Of a DNA stretch of 64,000 bases, positions 28,443 through 51,010 are shown piece after piece; the first letter of the stretch is position 1, and each line of letters starts with the position of its first letter. The notes beneath the pieces were generated by a model, which saw nothing but the letters and a program-made list of their open reading frames with translations, made no database searches and was not told where the DNA came from. The stretch spans positions 1 through 64,000 of the forward strand of contig NZ_SLUL01000008.1 of assembly GCF_004341205.1 (NCBI RefSeq), in the 5' to 3' direction. The DNA is from Thermolongibacillus altinsuensis (lineage in GTDB: Bacteria > Bacillota > Bacilli > Bacillales > Anoxybacillaceae). The position numbers and the translations under genes are program-made.

Positions 28443-28477
28443 AAAAATAAAAAAGAACAAGCGTTACGCCTGTTCTT
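28443..28477 (-). terminator. Terminator of mntR
   Basis: Minus-strand stem AAGAACAGGCG/CGCTTGTTCTT (one G-U pair), then TTTTTTATTTTT. Confidence 0.8.
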
Positions 28478-28892
28478 GTTCGTTTTGTTTTTGGATTTTT
28501 CGAAGCGCTTCGATGCGTGAACGATCTTCTTCGAAATATTGCACTAAATCGCCGATGCGGTCGATGGCATTCCAACTCAAATGATGTTCAATCCCTTCGA
28601 CATCGCGATAAATATTTTCTTCATCGACACCGATTAAACGCATGAATTGCTCAAGCAATTCATGGCGATAAACGAGCCGTTTTCCAATTTTCTTTCCTTT
28701 TGGTGTCAATACAAGCCCGCGATATTTTTCATATACTAAATACTCGTCTTTATCCAATTTTTGAACCATTTTCGTCACAGAGGAGGGATGAACAGACAAC
28801 GCCTCGGCAATATCCGAAACTCGGGCATACCCTTTTTCTTCAATGAGAATGTAAATTTGTTCAATATAATCTTCCATGCTTGGTGTTGGCAT
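28464..28892 (-). CDS. mntR: MntR, manganese-dependent repressor
   Basis: The 142-aa DtxR-family regulator represses manganese uptake genes when Mn is bound. Asp8 and Glu11 ([10 protein letters not shown]), His in VYRHELLE, and Glu/His in [11 protein letters not shown] reproduce the B. subtilis MntR metal site. The winged helix is at ~20-65 ([18 protein letters not shown]). The ATG at 28892, behind GGGAGGGAACTAT, gives exactly the B. subtilis length. Confidence 0.96.
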
Positions 28893-28965
28893 ATAGTTCC
28901 CTCCCATACGTACAAAACATCGCAATCATTATGATTATAACATGTTTACCAAGCATGACAACCAT

Positions 28966-30678: not shown

Positions 30679-33601
30679 TTATAATCCGCATTTCAACTGC
30701 GCACCGCAGCTTGTGCATGTGTTGCATCCGCCGATTTCTTCAACGGTTCCCTCGCGGCAAACCGGACAAATGTTGCCGACTTCTGAACCGATCGTCACAT
30801 CCGTAGCACGCAAGTCTTGAATCGTATCAACGAGAACGACCGGGCGTTTTTCGTTTGTTTCTTCAGGAAGAAGCTCAAGCTGCTCTTCTACGGTGTTTTC
30901 TTCCGCTTTTAGCGTCAATACTTGCGCATCCCGGCTTCCATCGACATAAACCGTTCCGCCTTTTGCGCCGCCTTTCCATAGACGCTCGTACACTTTTTGG
31001 ACTTGCTCAACCGTATAACCTTTCGGAGCGTTAACGGTTTTCGAAAGGCTTGAGTCTACCCAACGTTGAATGATGCATTGCACATCCGCATGCGCTTCCG
31101 GCGATAAATCCATCGCTGTAACAAACCAAGGCGGCAAGTTGTTTGGATCCGCTTCTGGATGTTTGTCCAAATATTCTTGGACAATGTCCGCCTTCACTTC
31201 AATAAATTTGCCGAGTCGACCGCTTCGGTAGTAAGAGAAGGAGAAGTATGGTTCAAGTCCTGTAGACACGCCGACCATTGTCCCAGTGGAACCTGTCGGA
31301 GCCACGGTCAGCAAGTGTGAGTTGCGAATGCCATATTTTAAAATATCTTGGCGAATATCTTCAGGCATTCTTTTCATATAGCCTGTGTTAATGAACGCTT
31401 CACGTAATTTTCGTGTTTCTTCTTCCGTTTGGCCGATGAGGAATGGGAAGCTGCCTTTTTCCTTCGCCAGTTCAATCGATGCGCGATAGGCAGTGGTCGC
31501 AATCGTTTTAAACAATTCGTCGACAAGTTTATTTCCTTCTTCCGAACCGTACACTTTTTCGCAATAAATCAACAAGTCCGCCAATCCCATGACGCCTAAG
31601 CCGATTCGGCGTTCGCCAAGCGCTTGTTTTCTATTTTCTTCAAGGAAATAAGGTGTCGCATCAATCACATTATCTTGCATTCTTACACCAATTTCGACTG
31701 TCCGCTTTAATTTTTCATAGTCGACAACTTTCTTTTCTTTGTCAACCATATTCGCTAAGTTGATCGCTGCCAAGTTGCATACAGAATATGGTGGAAGTGG
31801 TTGTTCACCGCACGGATTGGTTGCGACAACCTTTTGTCCGTACGCTCGTGCGTTCGTCATTTCGTTGGCGTTGTCGATAAAGAAGATCCCCGGTTCAGCC
31901 GAATACGTTGCGCAAATGTTGATAAGTTTCCAAAGCTCCCTTGCGCGGATTTTGCGGTAAACGCGAACGCGATAACCCATCTTTTCCCATTCGCGCACAT
32001 CGCCAACTTCATGCCATTTTTCGTTGTAAATGCGCATTTCTTCTTCTGAATACGTTTCTACATCCGGGAAGCGCAGTTCATATTCTTTATCCTCTTCGAC
32101 CGCCTGCATAAACTCTTTCGTCAAGCAAACGGAAATGTTCGCGCCTGTTAAAAAGTCCGGATTGTGCACGCTGTATGTGCCGCCTGTGCGCAATTTTTCT
32201 TCGGCTTCTTTAATAATTTTCTCGGTGAAGCCGCCGTAGCCCGGCACGTTTTTATAATTTACAATCGCTTGGTACATCTCTCGTTCTTGTTCGGTTAGCG
32301 GCGTAAATTTCAGCTTATCTTGAGCAGCTTTTTTAATCGCTTCATCTTCCATGTTTTCAATCAAATAACGTAAAATACGCGGATTTTGCATTTTTGAAAT
32401 GATAAACTCAATAATGTCCGGATGCCAGTCCGCCAGCATGATCATTTGAGCGCCACGCTATTTGTTACTCACTCGTCATTCGAGTGGGCTAGGTCATTTC
32501 TGCCTAGCTCTCATGCTTTCGCATGAGATCGGACTATATCATCAAAGAGTGAAACACTCTTTGTCTCGCGCTCTATAACGACGTTACCGTTCGTTATAGT
32601 CTACTCCTTCCTTAGCCATAAGCCTTAGGAAGTTTCGATAGTCTCTGAACCTTCATCTCCGTTTCCAGAGATGCTTGGCTGCTGGTCGCCCATTGTTGCA
32701 TCCAACTTGTTTTTAAACCGTCACGCTTGCCGTCACCGGCTACGTTGTGGTCAAGTTGGCTTTAGGGGGTTCCAGCAATTCGCGAGATTTTACTCCCGCC
32801 GATGGCGCTACGTTAACGGGAGCCACCTTGTTCAACAAGATGGGTTAATTTAGCAATGTCATCAAGCCATGAGACGGACCCGGACGATTTGCCGTTCACT
32901 CCGCGCGCTAACGTGTTGCGTGGACGCAGCGTTGAACCGTTTGTGCCGACGCCGCCGCCGCGGCTCATAATTTCCATGACTTGTTTCCGATGCTCAGAAA
33001 TTCCTTCGCGCGAATCTTTTACAAACGGCATCACATAGCAGTTAAAATACGTCACTTCCGTACCTGAACCGGCACCGTATAAAACGCGTCCCGCTGGAAC
33101 GAAATTCAAACTGACCAGTTCTTGATAAAACTTTTCAAACCATTCTTTTCGCTTTTCTTCTGTTTTTTCAACTGCCGCTAATCCGGTTGCGTTTCGCTTC
33201 GCAATTTGTTCATAAAAAATTTCCAATGGTTTTTCAATGACGTCAAGCGAGCGGACAACAAGGCCTGTTTCCGCCTCTTCACCTTCAAGCACATTTCGGT
33301 ACTCTTCTTCAACAAGCACCTTTGCTTTTTTTTGCTCCCAATCAAGCTCGACAATAAATCCTAGACCGCGAGCTGGAAACTTCGGATCTTCCTTCACCGT
33401 TAAGACAACAAAATCACCGACGCTTAACGTTAATTTTTCCGTATCTTTAAACGCATAGCGGTCAAGCATCACTAAACGAGAAACGCCTTTAAATGTGATA
33501 TGCATATCCGCTGTAATCGGGTGTACTTGCGGAAAAAGGCGAATATCCTCGTTTAATTTTTCAATGTTTACTTTCATTTTTTCAGAAAACGCAACCGTCA
33601 T
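30679..33601 (-). CDS. nrdJ: Adenosylcobalamin-dependent (class II) ribonucleotide reductase, intron-split
   Basis: Two exons, 32816-33601 (262 codons) and 30679-32457 (592 codons plus stop), join to an 854-aa class II reductase that makes deoxynucleotides without oxygen. Exon 1 ends in VEQGGSR and exon 2 starts RGAQM, restoring the conserved GGSRRGAQM. Exon 1 carries TYFNCYVMPF; exon 2 has NPCGEQPLPPYSVCNL and VAPTGSTGTM, and ends with a Cys-rich tail (CPVCREGTVEEIGGCNTCTS). Without splicing exon 1 terminates at a TAA directly after GGSR. B. subtilis has a class Ib enzyme instead. nrdJ, splB and the coiled-coil gene occupy a position between lipM and mntR that is empty in B. subtilis. NrdR-like boxes lie upstream. 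Confidence 0.93.
32458..32815 (-). ncRNA. Self-splicing group I intron in nrdJ
   Basis: This 358-nt insertion interrupts nrdJ in a conserved codon context. The 5' exon end CUCCCGU pairs perfectly with an internal guide GCGGGAG (32793-32799), with the expected U-G pair at the 5' splice site (P1). The intron ends in G (AACAAATAG), the omega-G. Core elements are recognisable: TTCAGAGACTAT and the later GATATAGTCC form P7; CCAACTTG/CAAGTTGG forms a P5-type stem; CAAAGAGTG/CACTCTTTG a P8-type stem; CTCATGCGAAAGCATGAG is a GNRA-capped P9-type hairpin. There is no open frame for a homing endonuclease. Subtype assignment is not attempted. Confidence 0.9.
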
Positions 33602-35197: not shown

Positions 35198-35230
35198 AAG
35201 ATTCACCGCAATGGGTGAATCTTTATTTTT
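35196..35230. terminator. Bidirectional terminator between yqhL and gcvPB
   Basis: Stem AAAGATTCACC/GGTGAATCTTT with a short loop and T-tracts on both sides; it overlaps the ends of both convergent genes. Confidence 0.8.
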
Positions 35231-36677
35231 GATAGCGCAAAATCGGTTTGCGCGCTGCGGTTGTTTCGTCTAACCGCTTGACAACGGTTGTGTGCGGAGC
35301 TTCTTGAACGATCTCCGGATTTTCTTCCGCTTCTTTCGCAATTTGAATCATCGCCTCAATAAAGGCATCTAACGTTTCTTTTGACTCCGTCTCTGTCGGC
35401 TCAATCATCATGCACTCTTCGACAATGAGCGGGAAGTAAATGGTTGGCGGATGATAGCCGAAATCTAAAAGACGCTTCGCGATATCAAGGGTACGCACCC
35501 CTAATTTCTTTTGCCGTTTTCCGGATAAGACAAATTCATGCTTGCAATGACGATCGTATGGCAAATCATAATACTCGGCTAAGCGGCGCATCATGTAGTT
35601 TGCGTTTAATACCGCATATTCGCTGACCGCTTTTAAGCCGTCCGGTCCCATTGAACGAATATACGTATACGCTCGAACATTAATGCCAAAGTTGCCGTAG
35701 AACGGTTTGACGCGCCCGATCGCTTGCGGTCTGTCGTAGTCAAGATAATAACCATTTTCTCCTTTGGAAACGACCGGTTTCGGTAAGAATGGAATCAATT
35801 CCGCCTTCACGCCGACCGGACCTGAACCAGGACCGCCGCCGCCATGAGGACCGGTAAACGTTTTATGAAGGTTTAAGTGCACGACGTCAAAGCCCATGTC
35901 TCCCGGTCTAGCTTTGCTTAACACCGCATTTAAGTTCGCACCGTCGTAATACAATTTTCCACCTGCATCGTGGACAATTTTGGCCATTTCCAAAATATTT
36001 TCTTCAAAAAGGCCAAGCGTATTCGGGTTGGTGAGCATCAATGCCGCTGTATCCGGGCCGACGACACGGCGTAAATCGTCTAAATCCACAAGTCCTTCTT
36101 CTGTCGATTTCACCGTAATTGTCTCAAACCCTGCGACCGTAGCCGAAGCAGGATTCGTACCGTGAGCCGTATCAGGAACGATCACTTTTGTGCGATTATA
36201 ATCGCCATTCGCTTCATGATAGGCGCGAATCATCATCAGCCCTGTCCATTCCCCATGCGCTCCGGCCGCAGGTTGTAACGTCACCGCATCCATACCGGTG
36301 ATTTCTTTTAAGTGCTCTTGAAGGTCATACATCAATTCAAGCGCGCCTTGTACGGTTTCTTCTGGCTGAAGCGGATGAATATGCGCAAACCCAGACAGGC
36401 GGGCAACGTTTTCATTGATTTTCGGATTGTATTTCATCGTACAAGACCCAAGCGGATAAAAGCCGGAGTCCACGCCGTGATTGCGCTTCGATAACGCTGT
36501 GTAATGGCGCATAATATCGAGTTCAGACACTTCCGGGAGTTCCGGTTCTTCCGTGCGAATGTAATCAGCTGGAATGACTTCTTCAACGTTAAGCGCAGGA
36601 ACATCCAACTCCGGCAAGCTGTAACCGATACGACCTGGTTTGCTGATTTCAAAAATAAGCGGCTGATCTTTATGCAT
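35223..36677 (-). CDS. gcvPB: Glycine dehydrogenase (decarboxylating) subunit 2
   Basis: The 484-aa PLP subunit of the P-protein decarboxylates glycine and passes the aminomethyl group to lipoyl-GcvH. The PLP Lys is in [40 protein letters not shown] and [15 protein letters not shown] contact the cofactor. It overlaps the end of gcvPA by eight bases, fitting a 1:1 complex. Confidence 0.97.
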
Positions 36678-38016
36678 GGCAATCCCCCAATTCCTTCACA
36701 AACGTGTCGATCTCTTCTTTTGTTCGCAACTCTGTGACGGCGACAAGCATATGATTTTCTAACTCCGGATAATCGCGGCCGACATCATAGCCGCCGATGA
36801 TGCCTTTTTCAAGCAATCGCTTGTTTACTTCTTTTACCGATTTGTTTAACTTCACGACAAATTCGTTAAAAAACGGACCGGTAAACGGCACATCAAACCC
36901 ATGCTCCACAAACGCGTTTTTGGCATAATGCGCTTTTTGGATGTTCATGATTGCCATTTCTTTGACACCTCTCTTGCCGAGCGCGGTCATCGCCACAGAT
37001 GCGGCTAATGCGTTTAACGCTTGGTTTGAACAAATATTGGATGTCGCTTTATCGCGGCGAATATGTTGCTCGCGCGCTTGAAGCGTCAACACAAAACCAC
37101 GGCGTCCTTCTTCATCTGTTGTTTGTCCGACAAGGCGGCCTGGAATTTTGCGCATAAGCGCCGATTTTACCGCAAAATAACCGCAATGCGGTCCGCCAAA
37201 TTGAGCAGGAATGCCAAACGGTTGGACATCTCCCACAACAATATCTGCCCCAAACGTTCCTGGAGGCGTCAAAATTCCGAGCGCAAGCGGGTTGCTGGCA
37301 ACAACGAACATGCTTTTCCCTGTATGCGCGATTGGCTCTATTTCTTTTAGCGGCTCAATTTGACCGAAAAAGTTTGGATATTGGACAATGACGCAAGCAA
37401 CTTGTTCATCCATTTCTGCTTGCAACGCTTCCAGATCGGTCACACCGTTTTTAAATGGAATTTCAACCACTTCAAGCCCCGGACCTTTGGCATATGTTTT
37501 TAATACATCTCGATATTCCGGATGAACCGCTTTTGATACAAGCACTTTTTTGTTTTTCGTATGCCCTGCGCTTAACAGCGCTGCCTCCGCAAGCGCGGTT
37601 CCCCCGTCATACATGGAAGAGTTGGCGACATCCATTCCCGTTAATTCACAAATCATCGTTTGGAATTCAAAAATCGCTTGCAATTCGCCTTGGGAGATTT
37701 CCGGCTGATATGGCGTATAGGCCGTATAAAATTCAGAACGTGAAATGACGTGATCCACAATAGCCGGGATATAATGATCATAAACGCCTGCACCGAGAAA
37801 CGACGGATGCTTTTTCATATGCATATTTTTTTCCGCCAGCGCGGTTAATTCTTTCATTAATTCCGATTCAGATTTCGCTTTTTTAATGTTATAGTCACGA
37901 TTGAAACGAACGCTTTCCGGAATGTCGGAAAACAGTTCATCAATCGATTGAACGCCAATCGTTTTCAGCATCTCTTGTTTATCTTCTTCCGTCATCGGCA
38001 AATAACGATGAAGCAT
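36670..38016 (-). CDS. gcvPA: Glycine dehydrogenase (decarboxylating) subunit 1
   Basis: The 448-aa partner subunit has the motifs [38 protein letters not shown] and [18 protein letters not shown]. With GcvPB it forms the split P-protein typical of Firmicutes. The ATG at 38016 gives the B. subtilis length; an ATG two codons earlier is too close to GGAGAG. Confidence 0.97.
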
Positions 38017-39200: not shown

Positions 39201-39366
39201 TCACCTGAAAGTTTCCCTATGTTGCCATAGGTTTTCCTCGTGGGTGGTTCACGTTCGTGAACGCTCTCCAGAGCCGCGTCAAACAAGAGTTCTTTTGCCT
39301 GAGAGATTCGCCCAACGGCTTGCTCCTTCGGCGCTACAAAATTGTAGTCTCTCCCCTTGTTCTCAT
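39184..39366 (-). ncRNA. Tandem glycine riboswitch
   Basis: Two aptamers are visible on the minus strand. Aptamer 1 runs from GGGGAGAGAC through GCGCCGAAGGAGCAAGCC to AATCTCTCAGGCAAAAGAAC. Aptamer 2 runs from CTCTGGAGAGCG through ACCACCCACGAGG to CTTTCAGGTGAAAGGACAGAG. The paired conserved GAGAG/CTCTCAGGC features, followed by a terminator and gcvT, identify the gcv switch, which activates glycine cleavage when glycine is high. Confidence 0.93.
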
Positions 39367-49125: not shown

Positions 49126-50229
49126 TTATTTAAAAATATCGCCCGAGTCGATTTGAACGTTTTTTTGCTGAAGCATCACTTGAAACGAAGCCCCGATTCC
49201 GCCATCCATAATGAGCGAACGAATGGCCCGATTATGCCGGCTTTGTTCCGAAAATGGATTCGGATCATGATGTTCAATGAAATAATGTAAAATGCCCGCT
49301 TTAAGCAAAAATTGATCTTGCCGCCATAAATCAACATACGTCCAACCGACTTTTTCTCCATAATAGCGCAGCGCATCCCATTGAATGTGAGTCGTCAAAT
49401 CCATCTCTCCCGGACGGAAAAGCAGATCATCGATGAGACGATGCTTATAATAACCTCGCAAACTACCGCGTTTTCGAGCTGGCTCCTTCCACTCTTCATC
49501 TGTATAGCCATAATCAACCGTAAAAATGACCGCCTTCTCTAAATGTTGATCCAAATCAAAAATAAACTGCTTCATCGCTAACGGCACTTCAAATCGCTGG
49601 CCATTATTTAAGGAAATGTTTCGCTCGCGCAAATAGCCGATGATTTCCTTGTTTTCAAGCGGAATCTTTTGCTCGGTCAATCCGTTTTGCTCGAAAGTAA
49701 TGAAGCATTCATATAACTGTTCATTTTCTTTTTCAATGACATGAACCGGAAAGGCGTCAAATAATTCATTGCTGAAAACAATTCCCGAAAAACGAGAAGG
49801 CAATTGATCGATTCGCTCCAATAATTGCACATTTTCAGCAAACATTTGCAGCATTTCTTGCTGTTTTTGGCGATGATACGGACTCACTTCGATTAAAAAA
49901 TACGTGCCGCTTGCAAATGTTTCCGGCGACAGACGTTTCCATTCTTCTAAAACAGCGCGCGCAAAGCGCCCTGTCCCCCCGCCTATTTCGCATATAAACG
50001 GCGGAATTTTTTCTGCTTCGATCAGTTGAACAAATATTTTCGCAAACAATTGCGCAACAACATTTGAAACGTTGCTTGTCGTAATAAAGTCGCCAGCGCG
50101 TCCGATTTTTTCTTCGTTTCTCATATAATATCCGTACTGTTCATCATATAAAGCAAGCTGCATATATTGTGCGTAAGAAATGCGCTTATACAAAGACGAT
50201 TCAATTTTTTTTCGAATGTATTCCACCAT
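49126..50229 (-). CDS. MidA/DUF185-type SAM-dependent methyltransferase
   Basis: The 367-aa protein matches the MidA (NDUFAF7) family: RISYAQYMQLALYDEQYGYY, GDFITTSNVSNVVAQLFA, CEIGGGTGRFARAVL (SAM motif I) and IVFSNELFDAFPVHVIE. C-terminal GGIGASFQVMLQQK is also typical. In mitochondria the homologue methylates a complex I arginine; bacterial substrates are unclear. Its promoter shares a perfect palindrome with an opposite promoter. Confidence 0.9.
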   Translation of the reverse strand: MVEYIRKKIESSLYKRISYAQYMQLALYDEQYGYYMRNEEKIGRAGDFITTSNVSNVVAQLFAKIFVQLIEAEKIPPFICEIGGGTGRFARAVLEEWKRLSPETFASGTYFLIEVSPYHRQKQQEMLQMFAENVQLLERIDQLPSRFSGIVFSNELFDAFPVHVIEKENEQLYECFITFEQNGLTEQKIPLENKEIIGYLRERNISLNNGQRFEVPLAMKQFIFDLDQHLEKAVIFTVDYGYTDEEWKEPARKRGSLRGYYKHRLIDDLLFRPGEMDLTTHIQWDALRYYGEKVGWTYVDLWRQDQFLLKAGILHYFIEHHDPNPFSEQSRHNRAIRSLIMDGGIGASFQVMLQQKNVQIDSGDIFK

Positions 50230-50256
50230 TTTTGTTTTTACACCCTTTTTTCACTA

Positions 50257-50307
50257 TTGACATAGTGTTAAATTTGTTATATTGTTAAGCTAGTAGCTTA
50301 ACAATAT
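50257..50307. promoter_or_regulatory. Overlapping divergent promoters on a 29-bp perfect palindrome
   Basis: A perfect palindrome with 14-bp arms (50279-50292 and 50294-50307) around G50293 has core TTGTTAAGCTA-G-TAGCTTAACAA. On the plus strand TTGACA (50257-50262) precedes TATATT (15-base spacing) or TATTGT (17-base spacing). On the minus strand TTGTTA and TATAAC are 17 bases apart and straddle the palindrome, facing the MidA gene. It looks like an operator for a dimeric repressor controlling both directions. It does not match Fur, PerR, Rex or GlnR spacing. Confidence 0.55.
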
Positions 50308-50373
50308 CCCCTCCCATTATAGGAATAGAACATCCCCCAAACCCCCTTCTCGTAGGAGAGAAGGGCTTTTTTT
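50290..50373 (+). ncRNA. Candidate C-rich small RNA
   Basis: A short plus-strand transcript of about 85 nt is predicted from the promoter at 50257-50285 to a terminator at 50344-50373. No open frame is present. It contains three C-rich single-stranded stretches (ATCCCCTCCCATT, ACATCCCCCAAACCCCC), which resemble ribosome-site-targeting C-rich motifs of Firmicutes sRNAs such as FsrA and RoxS. Identity to those RNAs is not claimed. Expression is inferred only. Confidence 0.4.
50344..50373 (+). terminator. Plus-strand terminator with no plus-strand gene upstream
   Basis: Perfect 8-bp stem CCCTTCTC/GAGAAGGG with a six-base loop, followed by CTTTTTTTA on the plus strand. On the minus strand, the direction of yqgX, no T-tract follows, so it fits a plus-strand transcript better. 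Confidence 0.7.
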
Positions 50374-50377
50374 ATTT

Positions 50378-51010
50378 TTAAAAGCCATTCAAAAACGGAT
50401 TGGTTTCCATTTCATTCATTAACGTTGTCTCTGGACCGTGTCCCGGTAAAACGACGGTTTCTTCCGGTAGCTGCAGCAAGCGCTCATGAATGCTTTGCAG
50501 TAATTGATCGTGATTTCCTCCTGGCAAATCCGTACGTCCGATGCTACCTGCAAACAATACATCTCCTGAAAAAACCGCACCTAGTTCTTCGCAATAATAC
50601 GATACACTTCCCGGAGAGTGTCCCGGCGTTTCAAGCACGCGAAGTGAAAATTCTCCAATCGTCAACGTTTGTTCACCATCAAGTAAATAATCAGCCGGTT
50701 TCACTTTTATTTCTTGTCCCATAAAAAGGAGAGAACCGTTTAACCATGCGTCGTTAAGCCAATCTTTCTCATTTTTATGTACATAGACAGGCACATTCCA
50801 TCGTTTACGCACATCGTCGACTGCTCCGATATGGTCAAAATGGGCGTGCGTTAAAAGCACCGCAAGCGGCTTCCATCCTTGGCTGGAAATATAGCTTACC
50901 AACTTCTCTCCTTCGCTTCCCGGATCAAAAATCAAACACGTATCATTCGGATGAACAAGCACATAGGCATTCGTTTGCAGCGAACCTAACGGAATTCGTT
51001 CCCATTTCAC
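50378..51010 (-). CDS. yqgX: MBL-fold hydrolase, glyoxalase II-like (YqgX)
   Basis: The 210-aa metallo-beta-lactamase fold enzyme has LLTHAHFDHIGAVDDVR, VLETPGHSPGSVSYY, VFSGDVLFAGSIGRTDLPGG and VLPGHGPETTL, giving all zinc ligands. It is related to hydroxyacylglutathione/bacillithiol thioester hydrolases; the physiological substrate is uncertain. It matches B. subtilis YqgX by position. Confidence 0.93.
   Translation of the reverse strand: MKWERIPLGSLQTNAYVLVHPNDTCLIFDPGSEGEKLVSYISSQGWKPLAVLLTHAHFDHIGAVDDVRKRWNVPVYVHKNEKDWLNDAWLNGSLLFMGQEIKVKPADYLLDGEQTLTIGEFSLRVLETPGHSPGSVSYYCEELGAVFSGDVLFAGSIGRTDLPGGNHDQLLQSIHERLLQLPEETVVLPGHGPETTLMNEMETNPFLNGF

Follow-up and report, generated by a model that had tools for sequence, protein, structure and literature searches.

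Among Gram-positive bacteria, trans-acting small RNAs (sRNAs) known from a wide range of species are few. In PMC8464778, five trans-encoded sRNAs of Bacillus subtilis are given as having known targets, and the C-rich regions of FsrA and RoxS are described as facing ribosome sites. The same paper describes FsrA as an RNA of 84 nt with two C-rich regions. RoxS/RsaE has its own promoter and terminator and, in a search with its Rfam model, is spread over the Bacillales. According to PMC4409812, RsaE is the only trans-acting sRNA besides 6S RNA that S. aureus and B. subtilis share in conserved form. A further comparison is IsrR of Staphylococcus, presented in PMC9410917 as an iron-sparing sRNA acting by base-pairing.

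The locus described here lies in a window of 64,000 bases (the whole stretch of DNA that was analysed) from a genome of the Anoxybacillus-Geobacillus family, the sole sampled member of its genus; the closest relatives with a species name that were met are of Anoxybacillus. Two minus-strand genes, separated by 148 bases, enclose it: a Methyltransf_28 gene (49126-50229) and a Lactamase_B gene (50378-51010), the domain names being those of Pfam. We take these to be midA and yqgX, the names used in an earlier note on this DNA. The element between them is on the plus strand. It has a sigma-A type promoter sequence, TTGACA-17-TATTGT (50257-50285), with the -35 box at 50257-50262, a 17-base spacer and the -10 box at 50280-50285. 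A predicted transcript from about 50292 to 50373 would include the 5' block TAGTAGCTTAAC (50291-50304), C-motif 1, TATCCCCTCCCAT (50305-50317), C-motif 2, AACATCCCCC (50329-50338), and an intrinsic terminator (50344-50373) made of a stem at 50344-50365 and a T-tract running to 50373. The runs of C are CCCCTCCC at 50308-50315 and CCCCC at 50334-50338, plus ACCCCC. The promoter-like TTGACA site, the C-runs and the plus-strand terminator with no plus-strand gene before it were thus all located as the earlier note had described them. The predicted transcript in the window contains no ATG, GTG, TTG or CTG, and a coding RNA was ruled out on this ground. The claim that the C-runs are unpaired is mostly borne out, with mean unpaired probabilities in the window of 0.82 for motif 1 and 0.90 for motif 2; over the family the means are 0.69 and 0.93, and in some members motif 1 is just half unpaired (family minimum 0.50).

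Our reading is that 50257-50373 would be a stand-alone non-coding RNA gene of about 82 nt, with its own sigma-A promoter and intrinsic terminator. The RNA would act in trans, the unpaired TATCCCCTCCCAT and AACATCCCCC base-pairing with G-rich Shine-Dalgarno regions and so blocking ribosome binding on target mRNAs, and a regulator would control it at an inverted repeat that spans the -35 box. We regard a trans-acting, Shine-Dalgarno-blocking sRNA of its own family, with a fixed place at the 3' end of yqgX, as the likely identity of the element. In the general traits of C-rich trans-encoded sRNAs the element appears to agree, having by its sequence its own promoter, its own terminator, no coding capacity and an intergenic position; its unpaired C-rich motifs are conserved.

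The earlier note had compared the RNA with FsrA and RoxS, and a diverged member of either family is the first alternative to be weighed: FsrA, at 84 nt (PMC8464778), is of comparable size, and unpaired C-rich regions are common ground. Rfam, however, does not bear out this kinship. No family reaches its gathering score at the locus, and the same holds for the RNA at 20 loci homologous to it, so the RNA is distinct from every Rfam family. A lax scan of the locus gave only weak and unrelated families (PyrR, EF3314_EF3315 and others), far below their gathering scores, and neither the RsaE/RoxS nor the FsrA model matches the stretch at E<=10. RsaE/RoxS (RF01820) has a gene of its own elsewhere in the genome (C4:40495-40615, 100.6 bits); it differs from the RNA described here in locus, in sequence and in a model length of 112 against about 82. 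The FsrA model (RF02273) finds no match in the one genome searched here, while the same model does match in B. subtilis. A Fur box is also lacking: at the promoter the Fur consensus agrees in at most 9 of 18 letters, a score that 342 of 400 windows also attain. The Rex consensus agrees in 8 of 14 letters, and 261 of 400 windows do as well. IsrR belongs to other organisms and another locus, and its sequence comparison is limited to the Rfam scans; it is C-rich in character, as is this RNA. Membership of FsrA or RoxS/RsaE was accordingly rejected, and we hold a diverged relative of either to be very improbable, though the RNA may well work like them. Elsewhere in the window, a Group I catalytic intron (RF00028, 82.1 bits) lies at 32510-32856 on the minus strand, between minus-strand ORFs at 30679-32445 and 32813-33601.

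Taken by itself, the sequence of the window is unremarkable. Promoter-like sites are not commoner than expected (6 in 3 kb, against a shuffle mean of 6.4), and the strict pattern TTGACA-16/18-TANNNT occurs three times on the plus strand and not at all on the minus strand of the 64 kb. Equal C-richness and G-poverty are found in 911 of 127,896 stretches of 52 bases, 221 of them with two runs of CCCC or more, and the predicted fold is no more stable than those of shuffled sequences (z -0.92). As promoter count, C-rich frequency and fold are all ordinary, the sequence alone would not support the claim of an RNA gene, and it is conservation that lifts the element above chance.

A 161-base query matches all 41 genomes of the family, from nine genera, with 74 to 92% identity excluding its own genome. 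The -35 box is identical in 41/41 (mean pairwise identity in the family alignment 1.00), both C-motifs are present in all 41, and ATATCCCCTCCCAT and AACATCCCCC are unchanged in every sequence. Mean pairwise identity is 0.88 for the -10 box, 0.95 for the first 14 bases (the 5' block), 0.98 for motif 1, 0.93 for motif 2, and 0.93 and 0.91 in the arms of the terminator stem, compared with 0.69 in the promoter spacer, 0.74 in the linker and 0.30 in the terminator loop. As controls, the flanks give 0.29 and 0.28, and the third codon positions of yqgX 0.47. In one of the eight pairs of the terminator stem a compensatory exchange has taken place on both sides. The conserved region begins at the predicted plus-strand start and stops at the terminator, a profile that by all appearances is that of an RNA gene with its own promoter and not of a spacer. 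The absence of joint conservation of promoter, C-runs and terminator had been named in advance as an outcome that would speak against a small RNA gene; in the event the three are conserved together in 41 of 41 family genomes, and we consider the RNA gene almost certainly real.

The same profile bears on the idea that only the terminator matters, ending yqgX or stray plus-strand transcription, the rest being chance. Several relatives have runs of A and T on either side of the hairpin, and there it could end yqgX as well, but promoter, 5' block and C-motifs are conserved as strongly as the stem, and the hairpin in the window has no T-tract on its minus-strand side. This explanation is hardly credible.

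The distribution of the RNA was followed with a covariance model built from 38 distinct sequences and searched in 397 genomes of the order. Matches at E<=3.4e-6 occur in 59 of the 397, 17 from the family itself and 42 from outside it. Of these 42 out-of-family loci, 41 are beside yqgX, and the remaining one, at the end of a contig, is beside the neighbouring gene yqgY. Only L148 among the next eight loci (E 1.1e-4 to 3.7e-4) shares the yqgX location; the other seven are elsewhere. Location, shared by 42/42 strong but only 1/8 weaker loci, therefore separates the family from chance. The RNA family is thus found in at least 60 of the 397 genomes, a lower bound from matches examined down to E 3.7e-4, and in 14 of the 47 numbered families of the order; the 330 genomes with a match at E<=1 mostly reflect chance and were excluded from the count. 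B. timonensis (L071), reached separately via midA, has both motifs, a longer linker and a terminator of other sequence. Near one RNA homologue (L129) a piece of a Group II intron (RF02001) was noticed at 396-560 on the plus strand.

The neighbourhood also invites another explanation, that the conserved stretch is the control region or leader of midA on the minus strand, i.e. a cis-acting element or operator and not an RNA gene. The element does lie directly upstream of midA, which adjoins it in 36 of the 42 out-of-family loci. However, midA was not found in the other six loci, all of which keep the element (L117, L124, L126, L133, L134 and L141), so that the element is independent of midA; moreover, promoter boxes, terminator and T-tract are oriented the opposite way, and conservation extends from the predicted plus-strand start to the terminator. 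We therefore judge a midA leader highly unlikely and keep to the reading of a plus-strand RNA gene.

Variation outside the family was followed in 38 sequences, namely 36 of the 42 strong loci (near-duplicates L106, L108, L110, L113, L114 and L115 having been dropped) together with L148 and L071. Motif 1 occurs as CCCTCCCAT in 20 of them, as CCCTAACCAA in 12 and as CCCATCCCAT in three, and motif 2 as ACATCCCCC in 24 and ACATACCCCC in four. The 5' block has the form TAGTAGCTTA in 23/38. A terminal hairpin was predicted by eye in 37 of the 38, that of L071 being beyond the excerpt, and a hairpin is retained even where the terminator sequence has been replaced (L127, L141 and L071). At L071 (Bacillus timonensis, 2320-2450) a much longer linker with a small hairpin, GTCTTGGCATAGCCAAG, separates motif 1 from motif 2, and a possible insertion sparing both motifs would give such a linker. 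The 5' block TAGTAGCTTAAC, which is not C-rich, is retained even where motif 1 is altered.

Given a real gene, pairing with ribosome sites in trans is the probable mode of action. Against this stands the 5' block, which is conserved like the C-motifs and is not accounted for by Shine-Dalgarno pairing. A different possibility is that the RNA titrates a protein, with the C-motifs as protein sites in place of pairing seeds. The two short motifs, repeated and single-stranded, and the 5' block TAGTAGCTTAAC are all nearly invariant, as a protein ligand would likewise demand; on the other side, no known C-rich RNA-binding regulator of the Bacillales was identified in this analysis, and the conserved fit of mntR and gcvPB described below favours pairing, weakly. 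We rate titration as unlikely.

Under the pairing reading, candidate targets can be sought among translation starts. The RNA paired against 56 starts in the window gives a best energy of -28.6 and a median of -13.9 kcal/mol; any C-rich RNA will pair well with ribosome sites of the usual kind, and single predictions mean little. Since pairing is this unspecific, conservation of the fit was compared across genomes instead. For motif 1 the candidate site singled out by conserved fit is the Shine-Dalgarno region ATGGGAGGG of mntR (28899-28907, minus strand). This gene (28464-28892, minus strand; Pfam Fe_dep_repress), which has TATGGGAGGGAAC before its start, fits motif 1 better than any other of the window's 61 starts, and was picked for comparison for that reason. 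In 22 of 35 further genomes (23 of 36 including the window) it once more comes out ahead of all other starts, 16 to 26 being compared in each, as counted in related genomes over stretches 10-30 kb from the RNA, the 25 of 61 such stretches without mntR being left uncounted. With shuffled motifs, mntR is best in 3.3 on average and 18 at most, and none of 150 shuffles reached 23.

A second comparison used 31 related genomes with a classical motif 1 besides the window, and the 13 genes, out of the window's 61 starts, whose start has an orthologue in 20 or more of these genomes. Though related, the genomes count as separate cases. Here mntR ranks first for motif 1 in 22/31 genomes, and when the choice of gene is repeated for each shuffle, 5 of 200 shuffled motifs do as well as motif 1 for any of the 13 genes. 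Motif 2 has its best fit in gcvPB (35223-36677, minus strand), which ranks first in 28 of the 31 genomes and in 39 of 47 in a wider set, with one of 200 shuffles as good for any of the 13. Its candidate site, TTGGGGGAT at 36682-36690 (minus strand), lies inside the end of gcvPA; as it also encodes that end, its conservation need not come from the RNA. Outside the family, mntR ranks first of 19 in G044, which has a classical motif 1, and 9 to 16 in four genomes with an altered motif 1, where the site does not fit. We regard mntR and gcvPB as leads, not proofs, each of them a possible target on sequence grounds but individually a doubtful one. Upstream of gcvT-gcvPA-gcvPB, the last of which is the motif 2 candidate, a Glycine riboswitch aptamer (RF00504, 70.4 bits) lies at 39277-39366 on the minus strand.

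Exact complements were searched as AGGGGATA plus a start codon in five genomes and as TGGGRGGGGAT and TGGGGGATGTT in 41 genomes. The patterns ended in a non-A base and missed at least a quarter of sites, including the window's own motif 2 complement; within this scope, no ribosome site recurs as a target across the 41 genomes among the exact complements of motif 2. The exact complements recurring at ribosome sites are those of an IS transposase, of sbcD (four genomes, genus g2) and of a DoxX gene (G034, partly G033), and none of the ribosome-site genes found in this way recurs across all genera. The IS transposase has the ribosome site TGGGAGGGGATTTTTTATGGC, which is complementary to motif 1 without a mismatch over 11 bases and was seen 12 times in six genomes (L210, L211, L212, L207). 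These are copies of one element, some of them remnants as judged by eye, including the one in this genome, and both copies tested have Pfam HTH_Tnp_1. An exact 11-base complement of motif 1 is also the ribosome site of a gene that by eye resembles a nucleotidyltransferase (starting VKAVIMAGGRGTRLRPLT), at G000:C8:64755-64828 on the minus strand, just past the window (L205).

As for control of the RNA gene itself, the earlier note had suggested repression through a palindrome with 13-bp arms at 50279-50307. This does not hold up: the palindrome is perfect in this genome only, and the other 40 of the 41 family members keep 8 to 11 of the 13 pairs. Inspection by eye did not reveal it in distant homologues, L102 and L105 among them, and no second copy within two mismatches exists in this genome. 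It is probably a by-product of the -10 box and the 5' block. A better candidate operator, and the likeliest regulator site to judge from pair conservation, is the inverted repeat CACTAT-TGAC-ATAGTG over the -35 box (50252-50267, plus strand). In 31 of 41 family sequences and 28 of 38 others it keeps at least five of its six pairs, one of which the -35 box itself dictates. It is weakened in genus g4 of the family. A search of this genome for a regulon of the repeat gave this one place, and exact matches of any kind occur in 20 of the 41 family genomes. Comparison with 15 operator consensuses gave none that was convincing; PerR agrees in 10 of 14 letters (25 of 400 windows do as well) and NrdR in 11 of 16 (45 of 400).

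The fullest version of the proposal would have an sRNA of at least 14 Bacillales families, under its own regulator at the single-site -35 repeat, use motif 1 to repress MntR, the regulator of manganese, and motif 2 to repress GcvPB, an enzyme of glycine cleavage, thereby linking metal homeostasis and glycine metabolism, with the mntR site unfit where motif 1 is altered. So detailed a scheme is unlikely to be right in all its parts.

The RNA was not found in the open literature as far as this was available; subscription papers and supplementary tables, e.g. those with the unnamed sRNAs of B. methanolicus (PMC4342826), fall outside that scope, and the RNA may already figure in an RNA-seq list. 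Its distribution is that of an old, apparently uncatalogued sRNA family of the Bacillales. Conserved at a fixed position, without a catalogue entry and present in 14 of 47 sampled families, it would be a core regulator awaiting a function, and it already has mntR and gcvPB as candidate targets and the -35 repeat as a candidate operator.
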